IMG/VR virus record: IMGVR_UViG_3300034064_000156 | Location: 1 to 32,209 of that record | Source: a virus | Length of the DNA: 32,209 nucleotides | Reading direction: 5' to 3' (one strand) | Shown: one piece after another, positions 1-32,209 of the stretch | Position numbering within the stretch: position 1 is the stretch's first letter | Layout: each line of letters starts with the position of its first letter | Translations under genes and position numbers: made by a program | Notes under the pieces: model-generated | Seen by the model: only the letters and a program-made list of their open reading frames with translations | Databases searched by the model: none | What the model was told of the DNA's origin: nothing

Positions 1-196
1 AAGGTCAAAGAAGAATGTTTGCCCATACTTTAGTTCTAGGCCTATCAAAGACCATGAACCCATAACATCAAACATTTGAATACCTATCAACGTATTGAAT
101 ATTACAAACTGCACCGTGCTTGCTGCATCAATACCAATACGAAATGTGAATATGCGCTCTGAACTATTAGGAAAGTTTTGAAGGATTGTTGCAAAA
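1..196. repeat. Left copy of 196-bp terminal direct repeat (circle junction)
   Basis: Matches 32014-32209 at 192 of 196 positions. The four differences (positions 55, 63, 67, 70) are all transitions within 16 bases; the other 180 or so bases are identical. The open reading frame continues in phase from this copy into the sequence upstream of the other copy, so the repeat is best read as the overlap of a circular assembly or of a terminally redundant genome, not as two functional copies. Confidence 0.9.
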
Positions 197-1446
197 GCTA
201 ATCCGGGTATCACAATACCATCGACAATCAAACCTACTTGAATCGGTATTTCGGCATTACCCGCTAATGATGGTGATAGTTGTAAGACTGCTTGAAAGGT
301 ATAGTATCCTTCCGATGGTGTAGTATATGTAAAGGTTGCAGGATTGTAATCACCACCATTGTCAAAGATTTCCGTATCGGCTTCTAAAACAAAATAAGCA
401 CTTGTGACGTTTACCGTCATAGGTGTACTCGTTTCTGCTTGAAAAAGCAAATCATTAAACGAATCACTTGCTACTGGTCTTTGACTATTAAGCCAAGGCA
501 TGTGGTACTCGGACATAATACCTTGCAACGTACCTGCTTCCAACTCAAAACCCGCATCAGTAATTATTTCTTCAAACAGATAACTCCATTCAAGTGCAGG
601 TGTAAAATCAGCCGCGTAGATTGGGCTTGTATTGCTATCAATCGGGCGTGTGCCTTGCTGATTGCCTGCACTCCATAACTGACCACGCTCTAATAATGTC
701 CACACACCCGGTATGAAACTACCAAAGATGTTATCATAGACCATGTTTTGATTTAGGTTAGGCAGGTCGGTAATATCCTTGAGCTTTTTTTCACCGATGT
801 TACGCACCAAATCAGGCGTTTCAGCATAGAACGCTAACTCTACTTCATTGATGCGGTTGTTCTGCTTGTATACCTTACGCGCTCGCACATAACCGAATGA
901 GATAGGCAAAGTGTCCACACGTATTTCAGCAGGTAACTTGTAGTGAAAGAAGTTCATATCACCCGCGCTCACATTCACATCGAATAACGCACCAACTGCG
1001 AGTTGGTTTGTGTCGCTGAATGGCACTCTAAACTCACGTGTGAATGCACCCTGTGACGTAAAGTTGTTTAAGTCTTGGAATCTCCAGTTCTGCGATATGC
1101 TTTCATTGACAAACAAGTCAAGATAGTACTCCTTAGTTACATCGTACAAGAAGTAGCCGCCTGCTGCTAAGGTAAAATCAAAGTTGAAAGGATTTGTATT
1201 GAGAAAGTTCAAGCGGGTAAATCCGGGGCTTGGAGAATTTTGTACAATAGAATCAACTTCGCAAGCTTGCGTATCACCATTAGCATTGATAAGCGTTAGC
1301 GTTTTGCCATCCAACTCAAGCTCTTCAGGAAAGCTTTCTATAATCAAACGCCATGAGCCAACACTACCATAGATGGCTGTGTTGCTTTGGCTTGTTAGCG
1401 TAAGCGTTTGAACTGGTCTTACTATTAATTGTACTTCTCCGTTCAT
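1..1446 (-). CDS. Large tail protein, N-terminal 482 residues (continues across circle junction)
   Basis: Open from the ATG at 1446 (product begins MNGEVQLIVRPVQTLTL) to the window edge with no stop. It continues in the same phase at 32013 and ends at 30298, giving one 1053-residue protein. The start lies three bases after the stop of the preceding tail gene (1450-2730), in the same operon. The product is rich in beta-strand-type sequence and lies between a conserved tail protein and the tape-measure gene, which fits a tail-tip or baseplate-hub component. I recognise no catalytic motif. Role assigned by position and size. Confidence 0.8.
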   Translation of the reverse strand, partial: MNGEVQLIVRPVQTLTLTSQSNTAIYGSVGSWRLIIESFPEELELDGKTLTLINANGDTQACEVDSIVQNSPSPGFTRLNFLNTNPFNFDFTLAAGGYFLYDVTKEYYLDLFVNESISQNWRFQDLNNFTSQGAFTREFRVPFSDTNQLAVGALFDVNVSAGDMNFFHYKLPAEIRVDTLPISFGYVRARKVYKQNNRINEVELAFYAETPDLVRNIGEKKLKDITDLPNLNQNMVYDNIFGSFIPGVWTLLERGQLWSAGNQQGTRPIDSNTSPIYAADFTPALEWSYLFEEIITDAGFELEAGTLQGIMSEYHMPWLNSQRPVASDSFNDLLFQAETSTPMTVNVTSAYFVLEADTEIFDNGGDYNPATFTYTTPSEGYYTFQAVLQLSPSLAGNAEIPIQVGLIVDGIVIPGLAFATILQNFPNSSERIFTFRIGIDAASTVQFVIFNTLIGIQMFDVMGSWSLIGLELKYGQTFFFDL

Positions 1447-3522: not shown

Positions 3523-6006
3523 TTATATTTTTTCAAGTTGAATGTGTGTTGCGTTGCCATAAACGGTAGCCGTTTGACCATTGCTTGATGTTACAAAAGC
3601 GGGTGTTAGGTTGCCTGAGTTTACGCCTGTGCTTATAAATATCTCAATAACTGCGAGACCGATTTGATTGACTGCCTGATTAAGTCGGTTAGTCAAACCC
3701 GTTCCGCTCGTTGCTGCTTGCCATTGCATAAACTGACCACCAACAGCAGCACTTGATATTTGCCCTACGTTCATAGTGCTTCCGCTAGGGAAAGTAAAGA
3801 GCAAACTAAATCCTGTTGTGGTGGTAAAGCCCGATGATACAACAAGCCTTCCTATATAAGTACTGTTTGCTTCAAGTGCAAGTGCGCAACCTGTGATGTT
3901 CGTGTTAGCTGATGTGTTGTTATTCGTAAGGTTTGTTGCTTGCACACCACGTAACAAACCAAGTTCACTTTTTAAAGTAGCAAGTGATATAGCACTTACC
4001 GTATTGTCTGCATTAATGCGTACGTAGCGTATAGCAGATGGGTTAGCAAGTGTTGCAAGGTTAGTACCTACCGTAGTAAGTCCGATGCTATCTTGCTTAC
4101 CATTGAATGTAGACCAATCTGCGCTACTCAATGCACCACGATTTGCCGCACTTGCCGTTGGTAGGTTAAATGTGTGTGTACTACCTGTGCTGCTAATAGC
4201 AAAATCAGTCCCGGCTGTGCCTGTTGCAAGGTTTTGCACTTGCGAGGTAAGACCATTGATTGCATTGATGCCGGTGCTAAGTGTTGTAATTACTTGACAC
4301 AAATGCGAATTTTCAGTATGCAACACCAAAGTGCGGCCCGATGTAGTAACAAACACACGCAAAGCCAATCTATCGGTTAAAGTCATAACCGTTGCTGGTA
4401 CTGCGAGCGCCGTAAAGTATGCGTCTATAACAGTACCTTGTGTAATTCCTTCGGGTGTTGCTACATCGGTAGCCAATAGCGTGAATGTGCTGCCATCGTA
4501 CTTGTACAATTCAACATAGAATGAAGGTGAACCGCCACCCGATGAAGCACTAAAATAAAGTTCAAGGTTGAAGTTTCCACCCGGCACTAACAACACATTT
4601 GGATCATTAGCATCCGTGATGAATTGTGCAATCAATCCATTGCCCTGAGCATTTGTTCGCGTGAAATCCGTTCCCGCTCCGAATACAGCCGTCTTACTCA
4701 TTTGATAGTAAGTGCTGCCGCCTATTGTACCTTGATTGATTGAGCCGTTAAGGTAGTAGCTAACCGATGAACCGCCTCCGCCTGTCGTAGGGAAGTTGGC
4801 TAATTGTCCATCACCACGCACGTATTGCGTCGCGAGACCTGCACCTGTGATAGCAAGTGTTCCTGCTGTGGTTATTGGTGAACCTGTAACATTGAATGCG
4901 GAAGGTACGGTAAGAGCAACTGATGTAACTGTACCACCTGTTGACGGTGTGCTATTAACCCATTCTGTCCCATTGTAAGATAGCACCTGCCCATTAGTAG
5001 GTGAAGGTGCATTAACATCCGATAGGCTATCAAGTGTAGTTGGTATGGTTGGTTTGTTGAGAATCTCAGCCACACCACTAACCGCATTCCAATCTGAGTT
5101 TACCTGTGCAGCAGGTATGGTAGGCTTATTCAATATTTGATAATCACCACTTGACGCATTCCAATCTACAGGGGATTGACGCAACCTGTAACCTACGCTT
5201 ACAAGTGTCCAGTACGTAGGGTTGCTAGGATTGATGGCATCATTGTTCGCAATGCACCTGTACACACTTCCGTTATACCACACCCTATCACCTATTTGAT
5301 ACGAGTTGCCAAGTGCGGTTATATGGTTTACGTTGTATTCAGTAGATACAAATTCACCACCACCACCACCACCACCCGAAGCATCAATGGTCACGCTGCC
5401 ATCACCATTGTCTGTAATGGTCACGTTGGTGCCTTCTACTAGGTCGAGTATGTTTTGCACCGCATTATCTACACCATTAGTGCGAAGTGTGATGCCATAG
5501 CCCGTGCCGCTGCCGCCGCTACCTGATGCACCACCAACCGACCATATTGCGGGAATGTCACACGCACTCCAGTCCCATGGCACTTCGAGCTGCAATGAGA
5601 AAGTAACACCCGTCAAGGTGTTCTTGTATTCCTCCATGAATGGCTCAATGGTAGGATTAGTCACTAACTGCACATCGAATCCAAACAACACCAAACCATT
5701 CTTCACTTCAGCTATTAAGTCCTGCGCTAATCGTACACAGTCGCTTATCACTTCGCGTTGGTATTCAGCTTTAAGTTCTTTGTCACGGGGTATATCTGCA
5801 AATATGATTTGGAAATCAAACTGCATGCCCCCATCTACCGGGCTGATGTTGTTAGGCACCACATGCATGAACGGGTATTGTTCATCTTGATCCATATCAG
5901 CCAAATCAATTTGACCGTGCGTAAATCGTTTAATCAAAAAGTGACCTGCAGCAAATGCTTCAAGTCGGTTGATTAGTACGTTATAGCTGTAATTGTAACT
6001 ATTCAT
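3523..6006 (-). CDS. Tail-terminator-like domain fused to a fibre/receptor-binding region
   Basis: 827 residues. Residues 1 to about 152 look like a small neck or tail-terminator-type protein (motifs DEQYPFMHVVPN, FQIIFADIPRD, EPFMEEYKNTLTGVTFSLQLEVPW) that occurs as a stand-alone protein in Bacteroidota phages, as far as I recall. A Ser/Gly linker (about 156-168) leads to fibre-type sequence: a Gly7 run near 211-217; a chitin-binding-module-like segment at about 231-270 (YQIGDRVWYNGSVYRC with PTYW); two ILNKPTIP repeats; YVRGDGQLANFP; and ALSSADWSTFNGKQ, typical of fibre shafts. The start overlaps the stop of the -1 frameshift extension of the upstream gene (TAATG at 6004-6008). Likely role: virion protein carrying host-binding modules. 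The fusion itself is plain in the sequence; the N-terminal role is inferred. Confidence 0.7.
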   Translation of the reverse strand: MNSYNYSYNVLINRLEAFAAGHFLIKRFTHGQIDLADMDQDEQYPFMHVVPNNISPVDGGMQFDFQIIFADIPRDKELKAEYQREVISDCVRLAQDLIAEVKNGLVLFGFDVQLVTNPTIEPFMEEYKNTLTGVTFSLQLEVPWDWSACDIPAIWSVGGASGSGGSGTGYGITLRTNGVDNAVQNILDLVEGTNVTITDNGDGSVTIDASGGGGGGGEFVSTEYNVNHITALGNSYQIGDRVWYNGSVYRCIANNDAINPSNPTYWTLVSVGYRLRQSPVDWNASSGDYQILNKPTIPAAQVNSDWNAVSGVAEILNKPTIPTTLDSLSDVNAPSPTNGQVLSYNGTEWVNSTPSTGGTVTSVALTVPSAFNVTGSPITTAGTLAITGAGLATQYVRGDGQLANFPTTGGGGSSVSYYLNGSINQGTIGGSTYYQMSKTAVFGAGTDFTRTNAQGNGLIAQFITDANDPNVLLVPGGNFNLELYFSASSGGGSPSFYVELYKYDGSTFTLLATDVATPEGITQGTVIDAYFTALAVPATVMTLTDRLALRVFVTTSGRTLVLHTENSHLCQVITTLSTGINAINGLTSQVQNLATGTAGTDFAISSTGSTHTFNLPTASAANRGALSSADWSTFNGKQDSIGLTTVGTNLATLANPSAIRYVRINADNTVSAISLATLKSELGLLRGVQATNLTNNNTSANTNITGCALALEANSTYIGRLVVSSGFTTTTGFSLLFTFPSGSTMNVGQISSAAVGGQFMQWQAATSGTGLTNRLNQAVNQIGLAVIEIFISTGVNSGNLTPAFVTSSNGQTATVYGNATHIQLEKI

Positions 6007-6272
6007 TATCTGCTATGTTTTCTCATTTCTACTTTTTGCACATATGCAAAATCGGCTAAGTACGTTAGGTGTGTGAACACTTCCATCACACCACGCTCTG
6101 TTACCATATCAAACTTTGTAACGTCTCTATCAGCAAGCACTTCTATGATGTGAAACCAACCGTACACGGCTAAGCCGTCTGGGGTTGTTCCTTCATCTCC
6201 TTCACTATCTCCGTTATCTCCTTTGCTAAATAATCTAGGGAACTGTTGTACAGTTCGGCTTCTAAATTCGAA
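6006..6272 (-). CDS. -1 frameshift extension of the tail assembly chaperone (T-like domain)
   Basis: Open in the -1 frame from TTC at 6270-6272 to TAA at 6006-6008, with no start codon needed at its beginning. The extension (about 88 residues, ending EMRKHSR) includes GLAVYGWFHIIEVLADRDVT and FTHLTYLADFAYVQ and looks like a real small domain. Its stop overlaps the start of the 827-residue gene as TAATG, the same junction used between most genes of this operon. That is strong evidence that ribosomes arrive in this frame. The transframe protein would be about 254 residues (166 + 88). A 6-bp hairpin (GAACTG/CAGTTC, 6240-6256) lies about 15 bases after the slippery run. Alternative: an unrecognised single-base error in the T run, in which case there is one continuous gene. 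Confidence 0.7.
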   Translation of the reverse strand, partial: FEFRSRTVQQFPRLFSKGDNGDSEGDEGTTPDGLAVYGWFHIIEVLADRDVTKFDMVTERGVMEVFTHLTYLADFAYVQKVEMRKHSR

Positions 6273-6769
6273 AAAAAAACAAGCACGTTCATCACATGGT
6301 CAAGTGTCAACTGCAACACTTCATTCTCGTACTTGCGTTTTGCGTTAGGGTTATATGCTTCTATATCGTAGTACTTACCGAACTTAGCTTTAATCGGTCG
6401 GTATAGTATGCACATCATTTTGAATGCTGCTTCACCGTTTATCTTACCATCTTTCCATACGCCCGCACAGTTAGAATCCAGGTCGATGTATTCACCAAAG
6501 GTCAACTCATTAAGGTTAGGCACAAAGCCTAACTCAATAGCACCAACCCGCACTTTGCGTTCGAAGTCATTACTACCTAGCTTAATGGCTGCTTCAAATC
6601 TCATTATGATATCATCTATCACATTTGATTGAAGTAGTCTTATGCTATCCGTACTCTTACCAGTTATGACGCGCACCTGTTCAAGCTTATCGACCGCGTT
6701 TTGATAGTCGATGTACTTGGCTAAGGTCACGCCCTTTGCGTTTGCTGCTATGCTGAACTTAAGTTTCAT
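6170..6769 (-). CDS. Tail assembly chaperone-like protein (0-frame product)
   Basis: 199 residues in the 0 frame. It contains GFVPNLNELTFGEYIDLD and MMCILYRPIKAKFG, a pattern I associate with a family common in Bacteroidota phages. A run of nine T in the message (6271-6279) sits at codons 164-166 (GTT TTT TTT TCG). A -1 shift there opens an 88-codon extension ending at 6006. Two products sharing an N-terminus through -1 frameshifting is the classic arrangement of tail assembly chaperones (lambda G/GT), which here supports the assignment. Located early in the late operon, before the tail genes. Confidence 0.65.
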   Translation of the reverse strand: MKLKFSIAANAKGVTLAKYIDYQNAVDKLEQVRVITGKSTDSIRLLQSNVIDDIIMRFEAAIKLGSNDFERKVRVGAIELGFVPNLNELTFGEYIDLDSNCAGVWKDGKINGEAAFKMMCILYRPIKAKFGKYYDIEAYNPNAKRKYENEVLQLTLDHVMNVLVFFSNLEAELYNSSLDYLAKEITEIVKEMKEQPQTA

Positions 6770-6802: not shown

Positions 6803-7087
6803 TTACAGATCGCTGTGGACTTGAATGATAACAGGTGCTTTCTCATCACCGCTATGTGTGATGCGTGCCTGTTTTGGTTTGAAGTATTCGAGTAAGGCTG
6901 TGTAGTGTTTGATGTATTCTTCATCCTCCATATCATTCATAATGCGCATGCACTTGGCTGCACCCTCCTGCACAAACCATTCACCTAACTCATTCCACAT
7001 TTTAGTCTTTTCACTTACTGCACCTTTCGGTTTTAAACCACCGTGACCAGGTAGTAGGTGGCCTTTCTCGTTTCTTTTCTTTTCCAT
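6803..7087 (-). CDS. Putative terminase small subunit-like protein
   Basis: 94 residues. N-terminus GHLLPGHGGLKPKGAVSEKTKMW recalls the basic Gly/Pro/Lys motif that opens DUF5681-type and small-terminase-like proteins. A helical segment follows, then LLEYFKPKQAR and a short tail ending VIIQVHSDL. A small terminase subunit or a DNA-binding protein is therefore plausible. Note that the large subunit lies about 5.5 kb away on the other strand (12539). Nothing in the sequence proves terminase function. Confidence 0.45.
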   Translation of the reverse strand: MEKKRNEKGHLLPGHGGLKPKGAVSEKTKMWNELGEWFVQEGAAKCMRIMNDMEDEEYIKHYTALLEYFKPKQARITHSGDEKAPVIIQVHSDL

Positions 7088-21414: not shown

Positions 21415-23397
21415 TTATTTGTTTGCGAATCTTGGATTATCAGGTAGGAAACCTTCATAAGGCATATCTCGTGGCTCCTGTGCTACCTTCGGATTGTTGC
21501 GCACTTTATACCCGGCTTTCTTCACTCGCACATCCATGGCTTCGCGTATATCTGGATTAGTTAGATCTAAACCAAAACCTTTTGCACTAGCAAAGGTCAT
21601 CTTCCTCCACACGTGGCCACATGCCCCTCCGCCCTTGTACAACCACACCGAATATTTATCAGCCCCTCGCGGCCCCCATCCCTCATTGACTATTTGCTTG
21701 CCCATTTGCATGATATCTTCTTTGCGATATAGCTTATCGGCTGCAATCATCTTACGGCAAAACTCACGTGAGTTAGCTTTAATCTCACCGCTGTATTTGT
21801 AGCGTGTATAGAACTTTACATCATCAATGGTTTCGTCTTGCGTAGACTTCGCATTAGGTCGCGCAGTACCTGTGCTTGTAGCAAAGTTGTGCGCTTCTAA
21901 ACTTTCATTGTCTGCATCATCCGTATCGTAGTCAACATCGTACTCATCAATCAATACCCAGTCTTCTTGCGGGTCTTCACCTAATGCAATCAATGCATCT
22001 GCTACTTTGTTATCATCAAAGTCGGCAGCTACTTTTTTTTTTTCGTCACTCATTATGACTTCTTGCGGCTGCAAGCTACCGGGCAATACATCGGCAAAGA
22101 TTGCGTCAACCGTTGCAGGTGGTAACGTTGGGAATGCAGCTTGAACAATTGCCTTAGCACTTGTCACAGGAACCGCACCCGCAGCACTTTGCATTACGAT
22201 GTCAACAAGCGATGTAATCTGCGCACCATTCAAAGCAGTAGCAGCAACATCTGCCGTAGTACCTGTTGCGCTTGCATCGGTTACAACAGATGTTTGTTCT
22301 GCTACAAGTGGTGTGTTTGGCACAATCTCAAAAGAAACACCCGGCATTTGATTACTCAATAGTTCGGTAATGCTCTTATCAATTAGCGTTTGATATGGCT
22401 CAATGACTTGCTTGTTGAATATCTCAAGTCCTGTGGTCATTTCATCCTTGTTACTTCCGAAGCCTGATGTTTCGCGTATACCGAAAAGAAGTGGCGTAGT
22501 AACACGGTGTGCTGTGATTATCTTTTGCGTTGCGGTAGTATCCATCAATTGATACTGCTTGTCCGCATCATTGACAGGGAATGGTGTAATCTCAGTCTTA
22601 GGTTGATCACGTTCGTTAAAGAACATTACCACCTTGCCTGCATTACGCGCACCACTCATCTTGTTCTCCCAGTCCATCATCATTTGCTGCTTCTGCTCAG
22701 GCGTTGCTTGCCCGTTGTAGAAGTTGATAATGGTTGAAGGGAATAAACCGTTTGAGATTTGGTTAATGTGGAATATAGATATCTGCTTATCTAACTCAAT
22801 GTAGTTAATCGCACTCCAGTAATCAGGGCGTGGATATACATCGCTACCTGTGTAAGTAAAGCACCAATAGATTTGGCGCGGTTCTTCATTACGTGTAAGG
22901 TAATTGTACTTTGGAATGAATTCGGGCGTGTTCTTTTTCTTGCGTGTGTTTGACCAATCGTAGCTGTGGAATATTCCTATCTCACTATCATCATCCTGAT
23001 TGACCGCAATACGACATTCTTCAAATGGTATCGGGTTTAACTTGCTAATTACTGTGCGATCATTAGACCAAATCACTTCTATAAAGAAACCACCAAACAA
23101 CTTCAAGTCATGTGCGGCTGCATAGGTCAAAGTGTTTACATCGAGTGCGTCAAGTTCCGCTTGATATTGTTCTGACTTGATACCCTTCCCGGCTATCATA
23201 TCACCAATGGCTACAACGAGCGAACCGTGTACTGGTGATTCGTGCGCAAGGTCACGGAGGTATTGCGGGAAATCATTTTGGTCACCGTAGTTAACCCAGC
23301 CTTTGCGGTCTACTTTTTCAGCATCACTCTTAGCTACATATTCACTAAGCTTCAAGCTAACTATATTCGATTCTTTATGCTCCATAGATAATGTCAT
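21415..23397 (-). CDS. Portal protein fused to a C-terminal head-morphogenesis-like domain
   Basis: 660 residues. Residues 1 to about 360 are portal-like (SEYVAKSDAEKV, WVNYGDQNDFPQYLRDLAHESPVHGSL, IWSNDRTVISKLNPIPFEECRI, MMDWENKMSGARNAGK, TAHRVTTPLLFGI). After a low-complexity Ala/Thr/Val region, the C-terminal part (about 530-610: SREFCRKMI, YRKEDIMQM, GGGACGHVWRKM) recalls the Cys/His pattern of Mu-F-type minor head domains. At the boundary the message has eleven A in a row (22033-22043, codons 452-455), directly after an internal ATG (22051-22053). The portal ring is the packaging channel. Overlaps the preceding gene by 23 bases. Confidence 0.8.
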   Translation of the reverse strand: MTLSMEHKESNIVSLKLSEYVAKSDAEKVDRKGWVNYGDQNDFPQYLRDLAHESPVHGSLVVAIGDMIAGKGIKSEQYQAELDALDVNTLTYAAAHDLKLFGGFFIEVIWSNDRTVISKLNPIPFEECRIAVNQDDDSEIGIFHSYDWSNTRKKKNTPEFIPKYNYLTRNEEPRQIYWCFTYTGSDVYPRPDYWSAINYIELDKQISIFHINQISNGLFPSTIINFYNGQATPEQKQQMMMDWENKMSGARNAGKVVMFFNERDQPKTEITPFPVNDADKQYQLMDTTATQKIITAHRVTTPLLFGIRETSGFGSNKDEMTTGLEIFNKQVIEPYQTLIDKSITELLSNQMPGVSFEIVPNTPLVAEQTSVVTDASATGTTADVAATALNGAQITSLVDIVMQSAAGAVPVTSAKAIVQAAFPTLPPATVDAIFADVLPGSLQPQEVIMSDEKKKVAADFDDNKVADALIALGEDPQEDWVLIDEYDVDYDTDDADNESLEAHNFATSTGTARPNAKSTQDETIDDVKFYTRYKYSGEIKANSREFCRKMIAADKLYRKEDIMQMGKQIVNEGWGPRGADKYSVWLYKGGGACGHVWRKMTFASAKGFGLDLTNPDIREAMDVRVKKAGYKVRNNPKVAQEPRDMPYEGFLPDNPRFANK

Positions 23398-27962: not shown

Positions 27963-28044
27963 TATATTTGACACGTTTTCATCATAGCATTGTTTTCAAT
28001 AGGTTTAGTTTCAGAGACCGTCCAAACGTGGGCGGTTTTCTTTT
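27963..28044 (+). ncRNA. Small RNA unit on the + strand, copy 2
   Basis: TATATTTG at 27963-27970, about 45 bases, then ACCGTCC AAACGT GGGCGGT (28017-28036) and a T-rich tail. Same order, size and CC-AAACGT-GG loop as 17704-17793, and a shared CATTGTTTT-like segment. No reading frame. Between the tape-measure stop and the protease start, transcribed against them. A clear -33 element is not seen. Confidence 0.45.
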
Positions 28045-30125
28045 TATCCTATCCTAGATAAGTCTTCAACCTTTACTCTCACTTCTTGTTGACTTGCGAC
28101 ATCACCCGCAAGCACATACGCACGTGGCGTGACTTGTTCAGGTCTATCTTGCAAGAAGGCAGAAGCGAATGGATTAAATTGTGCGGTTTCTGCACCACCA
28201 CCACCGCCGCCACCATCCAATGAAGGGGGTGGATTTTCACTTGTTGCAGGTGGTGTACCTCCTTGGAATTCTTGCTTTGCAATGGTTGCTACGTTAGCAA
28301 TACCCGCAGCGATTGCCGAACCCGCAGCAATGAATGGCTGTGCAGGGAAAAGAATTGTTGCAGGGTTAGCGGCTGCACTTGCAAAGATTGCGTTTGCACC
28401 CTTATACGTGTCAACCGTGGCCTGTGCTATGCTGATTGCCTTTTGTATTTTAAACGCACGTTTTGCGCTTGCTTCATCTTTCTTAGCTAATGCACCAACA
28501 AGCGCACCTATTGAACCTAATGCTTCACTTGTCAATGCAAGCTTTGCATCTTGTACGGCTTTTTCATTCTGTATACGTCTTTCTGCCGATAACTTTTCTT
28601 GATCATCTAATGCCTGCTGATAGGCTGCATCAACTTCTACTGTACTTTGACCCGCCTGTATTGCTTTCTCGCGTAGGTCTAAATACTTGTTGTCAATGGC
28701 AATTATTTCCTGTTGATCAGCAGTAAGATTTTTAGCATCCTGTTCAGCACGTAGTGCGGTGATGGCTGCATCGTAGTCTTCTTCTGCTTTCTTACGCTTG
28801 GCTGCTTCGGCTTCGGCTGCTGCGGTCTTTCTCTTTTCCGCTTCTTCAAACTCTTTTACGTTTTCCTCGTATAGCTGATTGACTAAATCACTTACTTCTT
28901 GTTCTGCTTTTAGTCGTTCTTGGGCTTCTTTTTCCGCTGCCGTCTTAGCTTCAGCTGCTGCCTTTTCCGCTGCAGTCTTAGCATCCGATGCTGCCTTTTG
29001 TGCTGCTGCTTTGTTCTTTGCGTCACGTGCATTCAACAATCCATCACGTGTATTTTCTAAATCCGTTACTGCTTTTTTCGCTGCTTCTGTTGCTTCTTTA
29101 GTTTCCTTTTCTACTTTGGCAGGGTCAAACAATAAGTTTGAAACGGAATCCGTAAGCTTATTTCTAAGATTGCCAACTTTTGCAAAGGTTTCATCAGTAA
29201 TCAAGCCAGCCTTATTCAAGCCTTCGGTAAGCAAATCAACACCTGCTAAAAGAGCAGTAAGTGGTAACGAAACAAAATTTAAAAGCCCTTCTAAAATTGT
29301 CTTGTTTCTTTTAGCCGCATCTATCTGTCCTTGTGCCTGCGCTTCTGTTGTTTCCGCTGTTACTTTTGCTGTAAGTATTGCAAGGTCTAATGCTTCTAAC
29401 TTTTTTTGCAGTATCTGTTCCTCAGTAAAACCTTGTCTTTTTAGTGATTCCTCCTGCTGACCTATTGCCTCAAATTGCTGTTTCGCCTGTGCAGTTTTTT
29501 CTTTTTGTATTTCAAGTTGTTCCTGTTCAGCATCCGTTACACCGTCAACTAAGGTCAATAACTCATCTGCATACACGATAGCAGTGGCAATGGCTGCACC
29601 AATTAAGAATATCGGATTTGTAAGTAGTGCCTTGCCAACTGAACCCAGTGCGCTGCCTATGCCTTGAATGCCTTTGGTAATATCCCCCGGCTTTACATCA
29701 CCAATGTTTTTTGCAAGTAGCTTTGCACCTTCGGCAGCACCTTCAAAGTCAAGACTGGTAATACGTGAGGTAACAAGTCCAAGCGATCCACTAACACGTT
29801 CGAACGCACCACCTGCTTGTGTGCCTACTGCTTGCGCTGCATCCTGAATCTTATCTTTAAGTTCACCCGCTGCCGCACTCAGTTCACGATACTTTTCGCT
29901 ATCGGGTTCTGTGTTGGCTAACTGCGCTTGTAACTCACGTAGCTGTGCCTTAAGTGATTTAGTAGACGTTGCTACTTCTTGTTCAGCAGCTGCTACATTT
30001 TCAAATGACTGCGCACCGCTGTTGATTGCAGCATCTGTCGCTTGAATTTGAACAGTTAACTCTTTGAGATTTTGCTCACTTTCGGTAGTGTCAATTACAA
30101 ACTTCCGTACAATAGGTTCAGCCAT
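28044..30125 (-). CDS. Tape measure protein
   Basis: 693 residues. N-terminal coiled-coil section (TTESEQNLKELTVQIQATDAAIN, SLKAQLRELQAQLANTEPDSEKYRELSAA), a hydrophobic patch (LTNPIFLIGAAIATAIVYADELL), then long Ala/Lys/Glu-rich helices with AEKAAAEAKTAAEKEA-type repeats, and a Gly-rich C-terminus (GGGGGGG near 645). Length and low-complexity helical content are those of a siphovirus tape measure of modest tail length. Its ATG overlaps the stop of the small membrane gene (TAATG). Confidence 0.85.
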   Translation of the reverse strand: MAEPIVRKFVIDTTESEQNLKELTVQIQATDAAINSGAQSFENVAAAEQEVATSTKSLKAQLRELQAQLANTEPDSEKYRELSAAAGELKDKIQDAAQAVGTQAGGAFERVSGSLGLVTSRITSLDFEGAAEGAKLLAKNIGDVKPGDITKGIQGIGSALGSVGKALLTNPIFLIGAAIATAIVYADELLTLVDGVTDAEQEQLEIQKEKTAQAKQQFEAIGQQEESLKRQGFTEEQILQKKLEALDLAILTAKVTAETTEAQAQGQIDAAKRNKTILEGLLNFVSLPLTALLAGVDLLTEGLNKAGLITDETFAKVGNLRNKLTDSVSNLLFDPAKVEKETKEATEAAKKAVTDLENTRDGLLNARDAKNKAAAQKAASDAKTAAEKAAAEAKTAAEKEAQERLKAEQEVSDLVNQLYEENVKEFEEAEKRKTAAAEAEAAKRKKAEEDYDAAITALRAEQDAKNLTADQQEIIAIDNKYLDLREKAIQAGQSTVEVDAAYQQALDDQEKLSAERRIQNEKAVQDAKLALTSEALGSIGALVGALAKKDEASAKRAFKIQKAISIAQATVDTYKGANAIFASAAANPATILFPAQPFIAAGSAIAAGIANVATIAKQEFQGGTPPATSENPPPSLDGGGGGGGAETAQFNPFASAFLQDRPEQVTPRAYVLAGDVASQQEVRVKVEDLSRIG

Positions 30126-30298
30126 TAGTATATAAGATTAGCGATTAGATAAATGAGTAAAAAGAATAAGAACGTGCGCCACGCATAGAGCGTAATAAAC
30201 CATAACACACGCTGCCACTTTCGTAATGAGTGGTCATGTCGTGGTTGTGACTTAATACCTAGCTGCAAATAGCGCATTGTGTTTTTAATAGTATCCAT
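30125..30298 (-). CDS. Small membrane protein between tail tip and tape measure (57 aa)
   Basis: 57 residues: basic N-terminus (RYLQLGIKSQPRHDH, LRKWQ) and one hydrophobic span (RTFLFFLLIYLIANLIY) after WFITLYAW. Evidence of coding: TAATG overlaps at both ends, with the tail protein stop (30298-30300) and the tape-measure start (30123-30125). A membrane protein in this slot is unusual. Possible role in DNA entry or tail assembly, unproven. Confidence 0.65.
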   Translation of the reverse strand: MDTIKNTMRYLQLGIKSQPRHDHSLRKWQRVLWFITLYAWRTFLFFLLIYLIANLIY

Positions 30299-32209
30299 TA
30301 TGATATTTTACTTTGTTGATATTGTAGCGAAGCAGTTGTAATGATGTTTACAGGGAATGTACCACCACCGCCTACGTTCAAGAACAGCCTGTGCTTTGCA
30401 GGTACTGCCACGTTCACACCCACGGTAAATGTGAATGCGGTTGTGTTGACCGTGTTGAGTGCTGTGATTGCGCTTACTGCCGCAACACCCGCAATCTTAG
30501 TCATGGCAAATGAATACTGGCCTGTAGCGTAAGTGCCTGCATTAGTATCCCAAATAGTCACATTCAATAGACATGACCATAGTGTGTCATTAGGTAGCTC
30601 GATGTGTTCATTAGTAACACCCTCTATGTAGTAAAAGGCATTGCCCGCTGCGGGGTATGAATCCTTTCTATGCAGTATAACCGTGCCTGATTGCGCCCAT
30701 CCCTTTTCTACATAAATACTACCATCGCGATAACCACCACCTAAGTGCATACCGGGTAGATTGGTGTAGACGTTTTTGCCAAGTAGGTTGCTACCTTGTA
30801 CGTTCTTGTACAACTCAAGCGTATTACCAACCGCTAACATGTCACGGTTACCAATCTCAATGGTTACGCTATCACCATTGATTACACTATTGGTGATTGA
30901 CCTTGTTTGTTGTGCGGTCTTAGTTACACGTGGTGCTGGGTTAGTGGTAGTACCTGCTACGTTTGTATTTGGTCTACCACCGCTCGGAATGGTTGCCCAA
31001 CAAATTGCCGTGCTTTCGTCCCAATTGTAACCGTAGCGTGTGCAACAATCTTGTGTAGCATCCACAGGATCACCATTGCCATCTACAAAGTTTACTTCGC
31101 CGCCAACAGATATGGTTGAGGGCGTTGCGCTACAGTCTTCGACATCTTCAAGAAACTTAATCAGCTTTACCGATGTGCTTTCTTGCATGCCCACCTTATA
31201 ATCATTAATCTCAAGTATGCGCCAATAACAATTCTCTATCCATATCTTGTCGCTAAATTGAAAAGTAAGTATGTCTTTAAGGTCAAGCGCAAACGAAGCC
31301 TCCATGATTCGTGCATCAGGCGAATACAAAGCATTCATGTAGGTACGCCAGTACAGATTAAATAAGTTGTTGTATGGATTTGTTGTGATACCGTATGGTG
31401 GTACTTCAGGTGCCCAGTTCAAATCAAAATCATACAAATCAGGATTAATAGCACTGTAATGGTTTAGCAAAGCAATATTAACCTGATTCACAGTTGCACT
31501 GCCATCATCGTAAACAAAACTATTAAACGTGCCCGCATAGTATAAACATCGCATGCCCGGATTGACAAACTGCAATTGTTCATTGATGAACATAGGCATT
31601 ATGATATCTGTGCCGTTAACAGGTGCGCATGGAGTGGATTGCGTTACAAGTTTTATGGATTGATCACCTATGGCAAAGTCACTAGACTCAACATCAGGAT
31701 TGACCGTGTAACCTACTACTTCATAGTCACCGTACACGCGATTGACGTTTTTATATTGCTTGCTTAATGCATCTTCACCTGCGCTGTACGTAAATTGAAA
31801 CTTAGCTTTTTGCAAATCAACCGTGCTGCTAATGGTAATGTCTTTTGATGTGTCTAGCTTTGATGTCCAGTCAAGAAGATTGCCACTACCTAGGTAACTA
31901 TTTTGCGGTACTATCTGCACTCTGTTTGGGCGTGTCCTATCCGATACGATTGCACAGTTGTGCATCTTAAGAACATCGGTTACAAAATCAATCTGCTTAA
32001 TATCGGGCGCATTAAGGTCAAAGAAGAATGTTTGCCCATACTTTAGTTCTAGGCCTATCAAAGACCACGAACCCACAACGTCGAACATTTGAATACCTAT
32101 CAACGTATTGAATATTACAAACTGCACCGTGCTTGCTGCATCAATACCAATACGAAATGTGAATATGCGCTCTGAACTATTAGGAAAGTTTTGAAGGATT
32201 GTTGCAAAA
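30298..32209 (-). CDS. Large tail protein, C-terminal 571 residues (continues from 1-1446)
   Basis: Downstream part of the same 1053-residue gene. Internal Met codons near 32127 are not the true start: the frame is open to the window edge and is in phase with 1-1446 once the repeat is merged. The C-terminal third holds Gly/Thr-rich and beta-rich stretches (for example around GGEVNFVDGNGDPVDATQDCC) typical of tail-tip proteins that carry adhesin-like modules. The gene stops at TAA 30298-30300, which overlaps the ATG of the next small gene (TAATG), so translation is probably coupled to it. Probably a baseplate or tip protein acting just below the tape measure; the exact homologue is not recognised. 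Confidence 0.8.
   Translation of the reverse strand, partial: FATILQNFPNSSERIFTFRIGIDAASTVQFVIFNTLIGIQMFDVVGSWSLIGLELKYGQTFFFDLNAPDIKQIDFVTDVLKMHNCAIVSDRTRPNRVQIVPQNSYLGSGNLLDWTSKLDTSKDITISSTVDLQKAKFQFTYSAGEDALSKQYKNVNRVYGDYEVVGYTVNPDVESSDFAIGDQSIKLVTQSTPCAPVNGTDIIMPMFINEQLQFVNPGMRCLYYAGTFNSFVYDDGSATVNQVNIALLNHYSAINPDLYDFDLNWAPEVPPYGITTNPYNNLFNLYWRTYMNALYSPDARIMEASFALDLKDILTFQFSDKIWIENCYWRILEINDYKVGMQESTSVKLIKFLEDVEDCSATPSTISVGGEVNFVDGNGDPVDATQDCCTRYGYNWDESTAICWATIPSGGRPNTNVAGTTTNPAPRVTKTAQQTRSITNSVINGDSVTIEIGNRDMLAVGNTLELYKNVQGSNLLGKNVYTNLPGMHLGGGYRDGSIYVEKGWAQSGTVILHRKDSYPAAGNAFYYIEGVTNEHIELPNDTLWSCLLNVTIWDTNAGTYATGQYSFAMTKIAGVAAVSAITALNTVNTTAFTFTVGVNVAVPAKHRLFLNVGGGGTFPVNIITTASLQYQQSKIS
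32014..32209. repeat. Right copy of 196-bp terminal direct repeat (circle junction)
   Basis: Second copy of the terminal repeat; see 1-196. In the tail gene the four differences are TTT/TTC, GAT/GAC, ATG/GTG and TCA/TCG, that is three silent changes and one Met to Val. This is the pattern expected of natural strain variants under purifying selection and not of random sequencing error. Confidence 0.9.

Follow-up and report, generated by a model that had tools for sequence, protein, structure and literature searches.

A known two-form gene of a phage tail module is lambda G/GT, in which a short and an extended form share a common N domain and the extended form carries a -1 extension (PMC5009743). 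The gene described here has the same organization, but it shows no sequence or fold match to G/GT, it does not adjoin the tape-measure gene, and it carries a tract of at least nine T where lambda uses a heptamer plus its context. In Shigella flexneri mxiE, a T run also joins two overlapping ORFs and one inserted U gives the longer product (PMC1088944); mxiE, however, encodes a type III secretion regulator, whereas the phage run is conserved across a broad family of phages. A coding-region homopolymer of nine likewise sets the product ratio in Thermus thermophilus dnaX (PMC1088944), although slippage at that A9 truncates the protein while the T9 considered here would extend it. In many bacteria, selection against slippage becomes apparent once A or T runs reach nine (PMC1088944). 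The literature searched, whose coverage was incomplete, yielded no paper that describes slippage either in the tail chaperone gene of a phage or in phages of Bacteroidetes.

Gene layout and conservation of the -1 extension

The window, that is, the whole stretch of 32,209 nucleotides analysed (IMG/VR record IMGVR_UViG_3300034064_000156), includes the following features around the gene under study:

6803..7087, minus strand: upstream gene, 94 aa, small-terminase-like by eye only
6170..6769, minus strand: 0-frame ORF encoding the short product, 199 aa, stop TAG
6271..6279, minus strand: putative T9 slip site, uninterrupted, 0-frame codons GTT TTT TTT TCG
6240..6256, minus strand: candidate hairpin GAACTG-TACAA-CAGTTC, 6 bp, arms 6256-6251/6245-6240, not a family feature
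6006..6272, minus strand: -1 frame extension, 88 aa plus TAA at 6008-6006, predicted helical C domain
6170..6270, minus strand: dual-coded stretch shared by 0-frame tail and -1 extension
3523..6006, minus strand: downstream gene, 827 aa, tail-fibre-like beyond its N-terminal part

The original prediction, made from the letters of this DNA, had placed the 199-aa ORF from 6769 to 6170, the T9 run at 6279-6271 and the end of the open -1 frame at 6006, with its TAA overlapping the ATG of the downstream 827-aa gene (TAATG), and all these coordinates are right. The slip position was also correct, but the junction proposed there, VFF followed by EFRSR, reads V-F-F-F-E-F-R-S-R with three Phe in the 254-aa fusion product; its VFFFEFR segment is identical for a ribosome slipping back and for a U insertion. 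In the short form, a mostly helical N domain is followed by a tail past the T run that is specific to the 0 frame, as judged from the AF2 model and the family alignments. The dual-coded overlap has a median length of 164 nt across the gene family.

The upstream 94-aa gene gave weak PHROG matches of unknown function. The N-terminal part of the 827-aa gene weakly resembles phrog_30964 (E 0.029), the family adjoining the slip-site gene in the cultured phage P12024S and in distant relatives. Minus-strand ORFs are open at both ends of the window (1-1446 and 30298-32208) and may be one gene of about 1118 aa. The portal gene is split over both ends of a relative contig (G004, locus L024), so genomes of this group appear to be circular or permuted.

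Relatives were collected as several hundred loci from IMG/VR and bacterial genome contigs. The extension is encoded in the -1 frame by 209 of 210 and 106 of 106 distinct members (315 of 316 overall), a regularity beyond chance, and the conservation reaches about 25% protein identity among distinct relatives. Family alignments revealed a conserved motif in the extension, FRxR...F...GW...D(I/V)T(K/R)F...L, so that the extension carries a conserved GW domain. The sole exception is locus L053 (2475-3134), in which the T run and spacer are deleted and the N and C domains are fused in frame; it was not relied upon as a true natural fusion, being a single contig that may carry an assembly deletion. 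Family members include the cultured Nonlabens phages P12024S/L; in P12024S the gene is laid out as in the window, and its two parts are annotated as two hypothetical genes. For the most part, the hosts indicated by MAG matches are Flavobacteriaceae and other Bacteroidetes.

Sequencing errors are a general risk at homopolymers, and a count of 8 or 10 T on resequencing of this locus, which would give one continuous frame, had been named beforehand as a result that would undo the prediction. The run is T9 in 13 of 13 near-identical contigs checked, which excludes a homopolymer sequencing error. The same tract recurs in hundreds of relatives and both frames are conserved, so that the chance of an error or of a decayed frame (pseudogene) is negligible.

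Alternatively, the -1 ORF could be initiated on its own as an independent gene, which is how ORF39 of P12024S is annotated; in the window a GTG at 6167 adjoins the 0-frame stop. Among 166 members, however, the stretch from the run to the GW motif contains no -1 ATG in 158 and no ATG, GTG or TTG in 123, and the 0-frame stop lies beyond the GW motif in 128. With no early -1 start and a 0-frame stop past the motif, separate initiation cannot yield the conserved domain in those members, and an independent start of the extension was excluded for most of the 166 from these start-codon and stop positions. The conserved FRxR motif and the length of the extension run back to the T tract, and in-frame fusions are found in L053 and in Duneviridae; a separate gene is therefore highly improbable. 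The comparison indicates that the frame change is real and ancient, and strongly supports a programmed -1 frame change giving a protein in two forms.

A remote homologue is found in Duneviridae phrog_25418 (Ingeline gp5, laban gp17, FPSV-F7), with the same N plus C layout and an LFF-like motif at the junction in most cases. In contrast to the gene described here, it is encoded by a single continuous ORF that stays in frame for about 300 aa, has neither T9 nor a frame change and lies between the adaptor and the tape measure. This homology is individually weak, coming from hmmsearch in a six-sequence set and from a Foldseek match with E 4e-4 for phage 6H. In Flavobacterium phage 6H itself (L418, KC959568, 10352-10927) the annotated ORF has 191 aa, versus the single ORF of about 293 aa in relatives like FPSV-F7, and its frame differs from that of close relatives at the N/C junction.

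The T run and the mechanism of the frame change

The run was examined in 249 distinct contexts and is T9 in 216, T10 in 32 and T12 in one, never 8 or fewer. The conserved run and open -1 frame that the original prediction proposed to look for among relatives are both present, in 249 of 249 contexts and 315 of 316 distinct sequences, respectively. The run stays at nine or more T across three codon phases, namely NTT TTT TTT Tnn, CGG TTT TTT TTT GTT and NTT TTT TTT TTC/TTG. The core Phe codon shows zero changes on the tree, compared with a median of 59.5 changes at third positions elsewhere. Upstream of the run 29% of Phe codons are TTC, whereas the Phe codons of the run are always TTT in the 207 main-class members. 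With 24 clusters at 50% identity, assumed to be independent, T at all run wobbles would be expected with a probability of about 1e-16. This pattern indicates that the selected unit is the homopolymer of at least nine T, regardless of codon phase, and not the heptamer. Coding partly fixes the ends of the run: a hydrophobic first codon is almost universal, and the -1 frame would be damaged by most changes of the last T.

The locus has two features of described slippage sites of the mxiE/dnaX type, an A/T homopolymer spanning about nine nucleotides or more within a coding region and a conserved downstream ORF reached by an indel in the run. Other T9 runs in the loci were considered as slip sites; those examined, about 520-550 nt upstream of the T run described here, are the U tracts of intrinsic terminators preceding the gene and no additional slip sites. 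In five distant relatives (L138, L071, L066, L081, L213) the gene is preceded by such a terminator, T9 tract included, and by an AT-rich, promoter-like stretch, and therefore seems to be the first in its operon.

Sites of -1 ribosomal frameshifting commonly, though not universally, include a stimulatory structure or an upstream SD, and neither is conserved here. Downstream folding gave a mean z of -0.04 (n=62), and SD-like motifs precede the run in 2% of cases versus a background of 15%. The hairpin in the window, which starts 15 nt past the run, had been noticed from the beginning as a feature of the site. It is present and weakly kept in the near clade (n=34), with 6 of 6 pairs in 13 members, 5 in 19 and 4 in 2, but across the family its pairing is not above that at control positions, and it was accordingly rejected as a family feature.

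Programmed -1 ribosomal frameshifting, in which both tRNA-Phe would slip on U_UUU_UUU as in lambda G/GT, without transcript heterogeneity, is the main alternative mechanism. An in-phase heptamer T_TTT_TTT (or T_TTT_TTC/G) is present in every member, H_HHU_UUY sequences are shift-prone in E. coli (PMC4066793), and this is the classical route for tail chaperone genes (PMC5009743). Seven T would suffice for it, yet at least nine are always kept. Conservation confined to the heptamer with a variable last position is not what is seen, since UUC at the wobble is absent from the 207 main-class members even though T_TTT_TTC belongs to the heptamers that work efficiently in E. coli (PMC4066793). U_UUU_UUU is, moreover, weaker than A_AAA_AAG in E. 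coli (PMC5009743), and conserved stimulatory elements are lacking, as described above. A purely ribosomal shift is thus considered unlikely.

The maintenance of at least nine T in all phases, the invariant wobbles and the lack of a conserved structure or SD lead us to prefer transcriptional slippage, which is probably the mechanism. Most transcripts would contain U9, from which the 199-aa short form would be translated. At the T9 tract, RNA polymerase would realign on the weak rU:dA hybrid, producing a fraction of mRNAs with U10, and ordinary translation of these mRNAs would give the 254-aa fusion, ending where the next gene starts; the loss of one U would lead to a stop within a few codons. 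We infer that slippage takes place in the RNA and that the length of the tract sets the ratio of short to long forms, which would be why the tract is never shorter than nine T. The lambda-like logic originally proposed is retained by this comparison as a -1 frame change giving two forms, while transcriptional slippage is judged more likely than its ribosomal slip assisted by the hairpin. Since every member has the in-phase heptamer and coding partly fixes the outer two T, a ribosomal share is possible; both mechanisms could contribute, U_UUU_UUU being itself a ribosomal heptamer. The explanation as a whole, a two-domain tail-module protein with its C domain in the -1 frame, slippage at T9 and a ratio set by tract length, is regarded as fairly probable.

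Tail-module context and function

In P12024S the gene order is TerL, slip-site gene, phrog_30964, phrog_29822 (weakly HK97-gp10/neck-like), phrog_35281 and phrog_38559, with a weak tape-measure match further on. The window contains the same kinds of genes, the best tape-measure candidate being located at 28044-30125, and several genes separate the slip-site gene from the likely tape-measure gene further downstream. A position between the major tail protein and the tape measure, next to the latter, as in G/GT, was found neither in the window nor in P12024S or Ingeline.

Structure prediction with AF2 gave a mean pLDDT of 86.8 for the mostly helical N domain and of 79.8 for the extension, modelled as a small helical domain. 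Sequence searches against Pfam, PHROGs and PDB gave no informative chaperone match, and Foldseek of both domains against PDB gave nothing significant; one weak BFVD match is named chaperone (E 0.71). The likeness to G/GT therefore lies in the two forms that a tail-module gene would give through a -1 frame change, as supported by comparison, and not in similarity of sequence or fold to known chaperones.

Synteny and the two-form logic make a role in tail assembly the most likely one, perhaps as a chaperone working like lambda G/GT. The label of tail assembly chaperone is reasonable, with the chances that this is the actual role about evenly balanced. Another reading accepts the frame change but takes the protein for a head-tail connector or a minor virion protein, rarely made in its extended form, as suggested by its location adjoining TerL in distant members and between the adaptor and small tail genes in Ingeline, by the existence of in-frame single-ORF homologues and by the lack of chaperone homology. 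Tail-tube and capsid folds are not mostly helical, unlike the predicted model, and a small helical protein in two forms upstream of tail completion genes resembles G/GT. A connector or minor virion protein is a serious possibility, falling somewhat short of an even chance.

The portal-gene A run and implications for the phage family

The portal gene of the window (21415-23397, minus strand) contains an A11 run on its coding strand, corresponding to T11 at 22033-22043 of the plus strand. In a set formed by the window, L424-L434, L437 and L438, all 14 near relatives analysed keep a run of A9, A10 or A11 where the portal joins a conserved C-terminal domain. The flanking sequences differ, and both alternative frames reach a stop within nine codons in every case. 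The run is absent from distant clades. It resembles dnaX-type slippage, of which it would be a closer analogue than the T9 tract, and is a possible second slippage site in the clade of the window; this suggests that the clade uses homopolymers more than once, in keeping with the slippage proposed for the T run. More tentatively, and with some doubt, a Flavobacteriia-type phage lineage may set virion-assembly ratios by RNA-polymerase slippage, with T runs of at least nine extending a tail-module protein and, in the clade of the window, the A9-A11 run truncating the portal. We know of no earlier phage assembly system tuned in transcription and not in translation, and this one would be the first if true.

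The proposed slippage would explain why annotators have split one gene into two hypothetical ORFs, and it provides a simple rule for locating this gene in uncultured phages, a run of at least nine T in phase with a -1 ORF. The cultured phage P12024S carries the site and constitutes a clean natural test case. If the proposal is true, RNA polymerase instead of the ribosome can run the two-form logic of tail assembly genes, and can do so over deep divergence.
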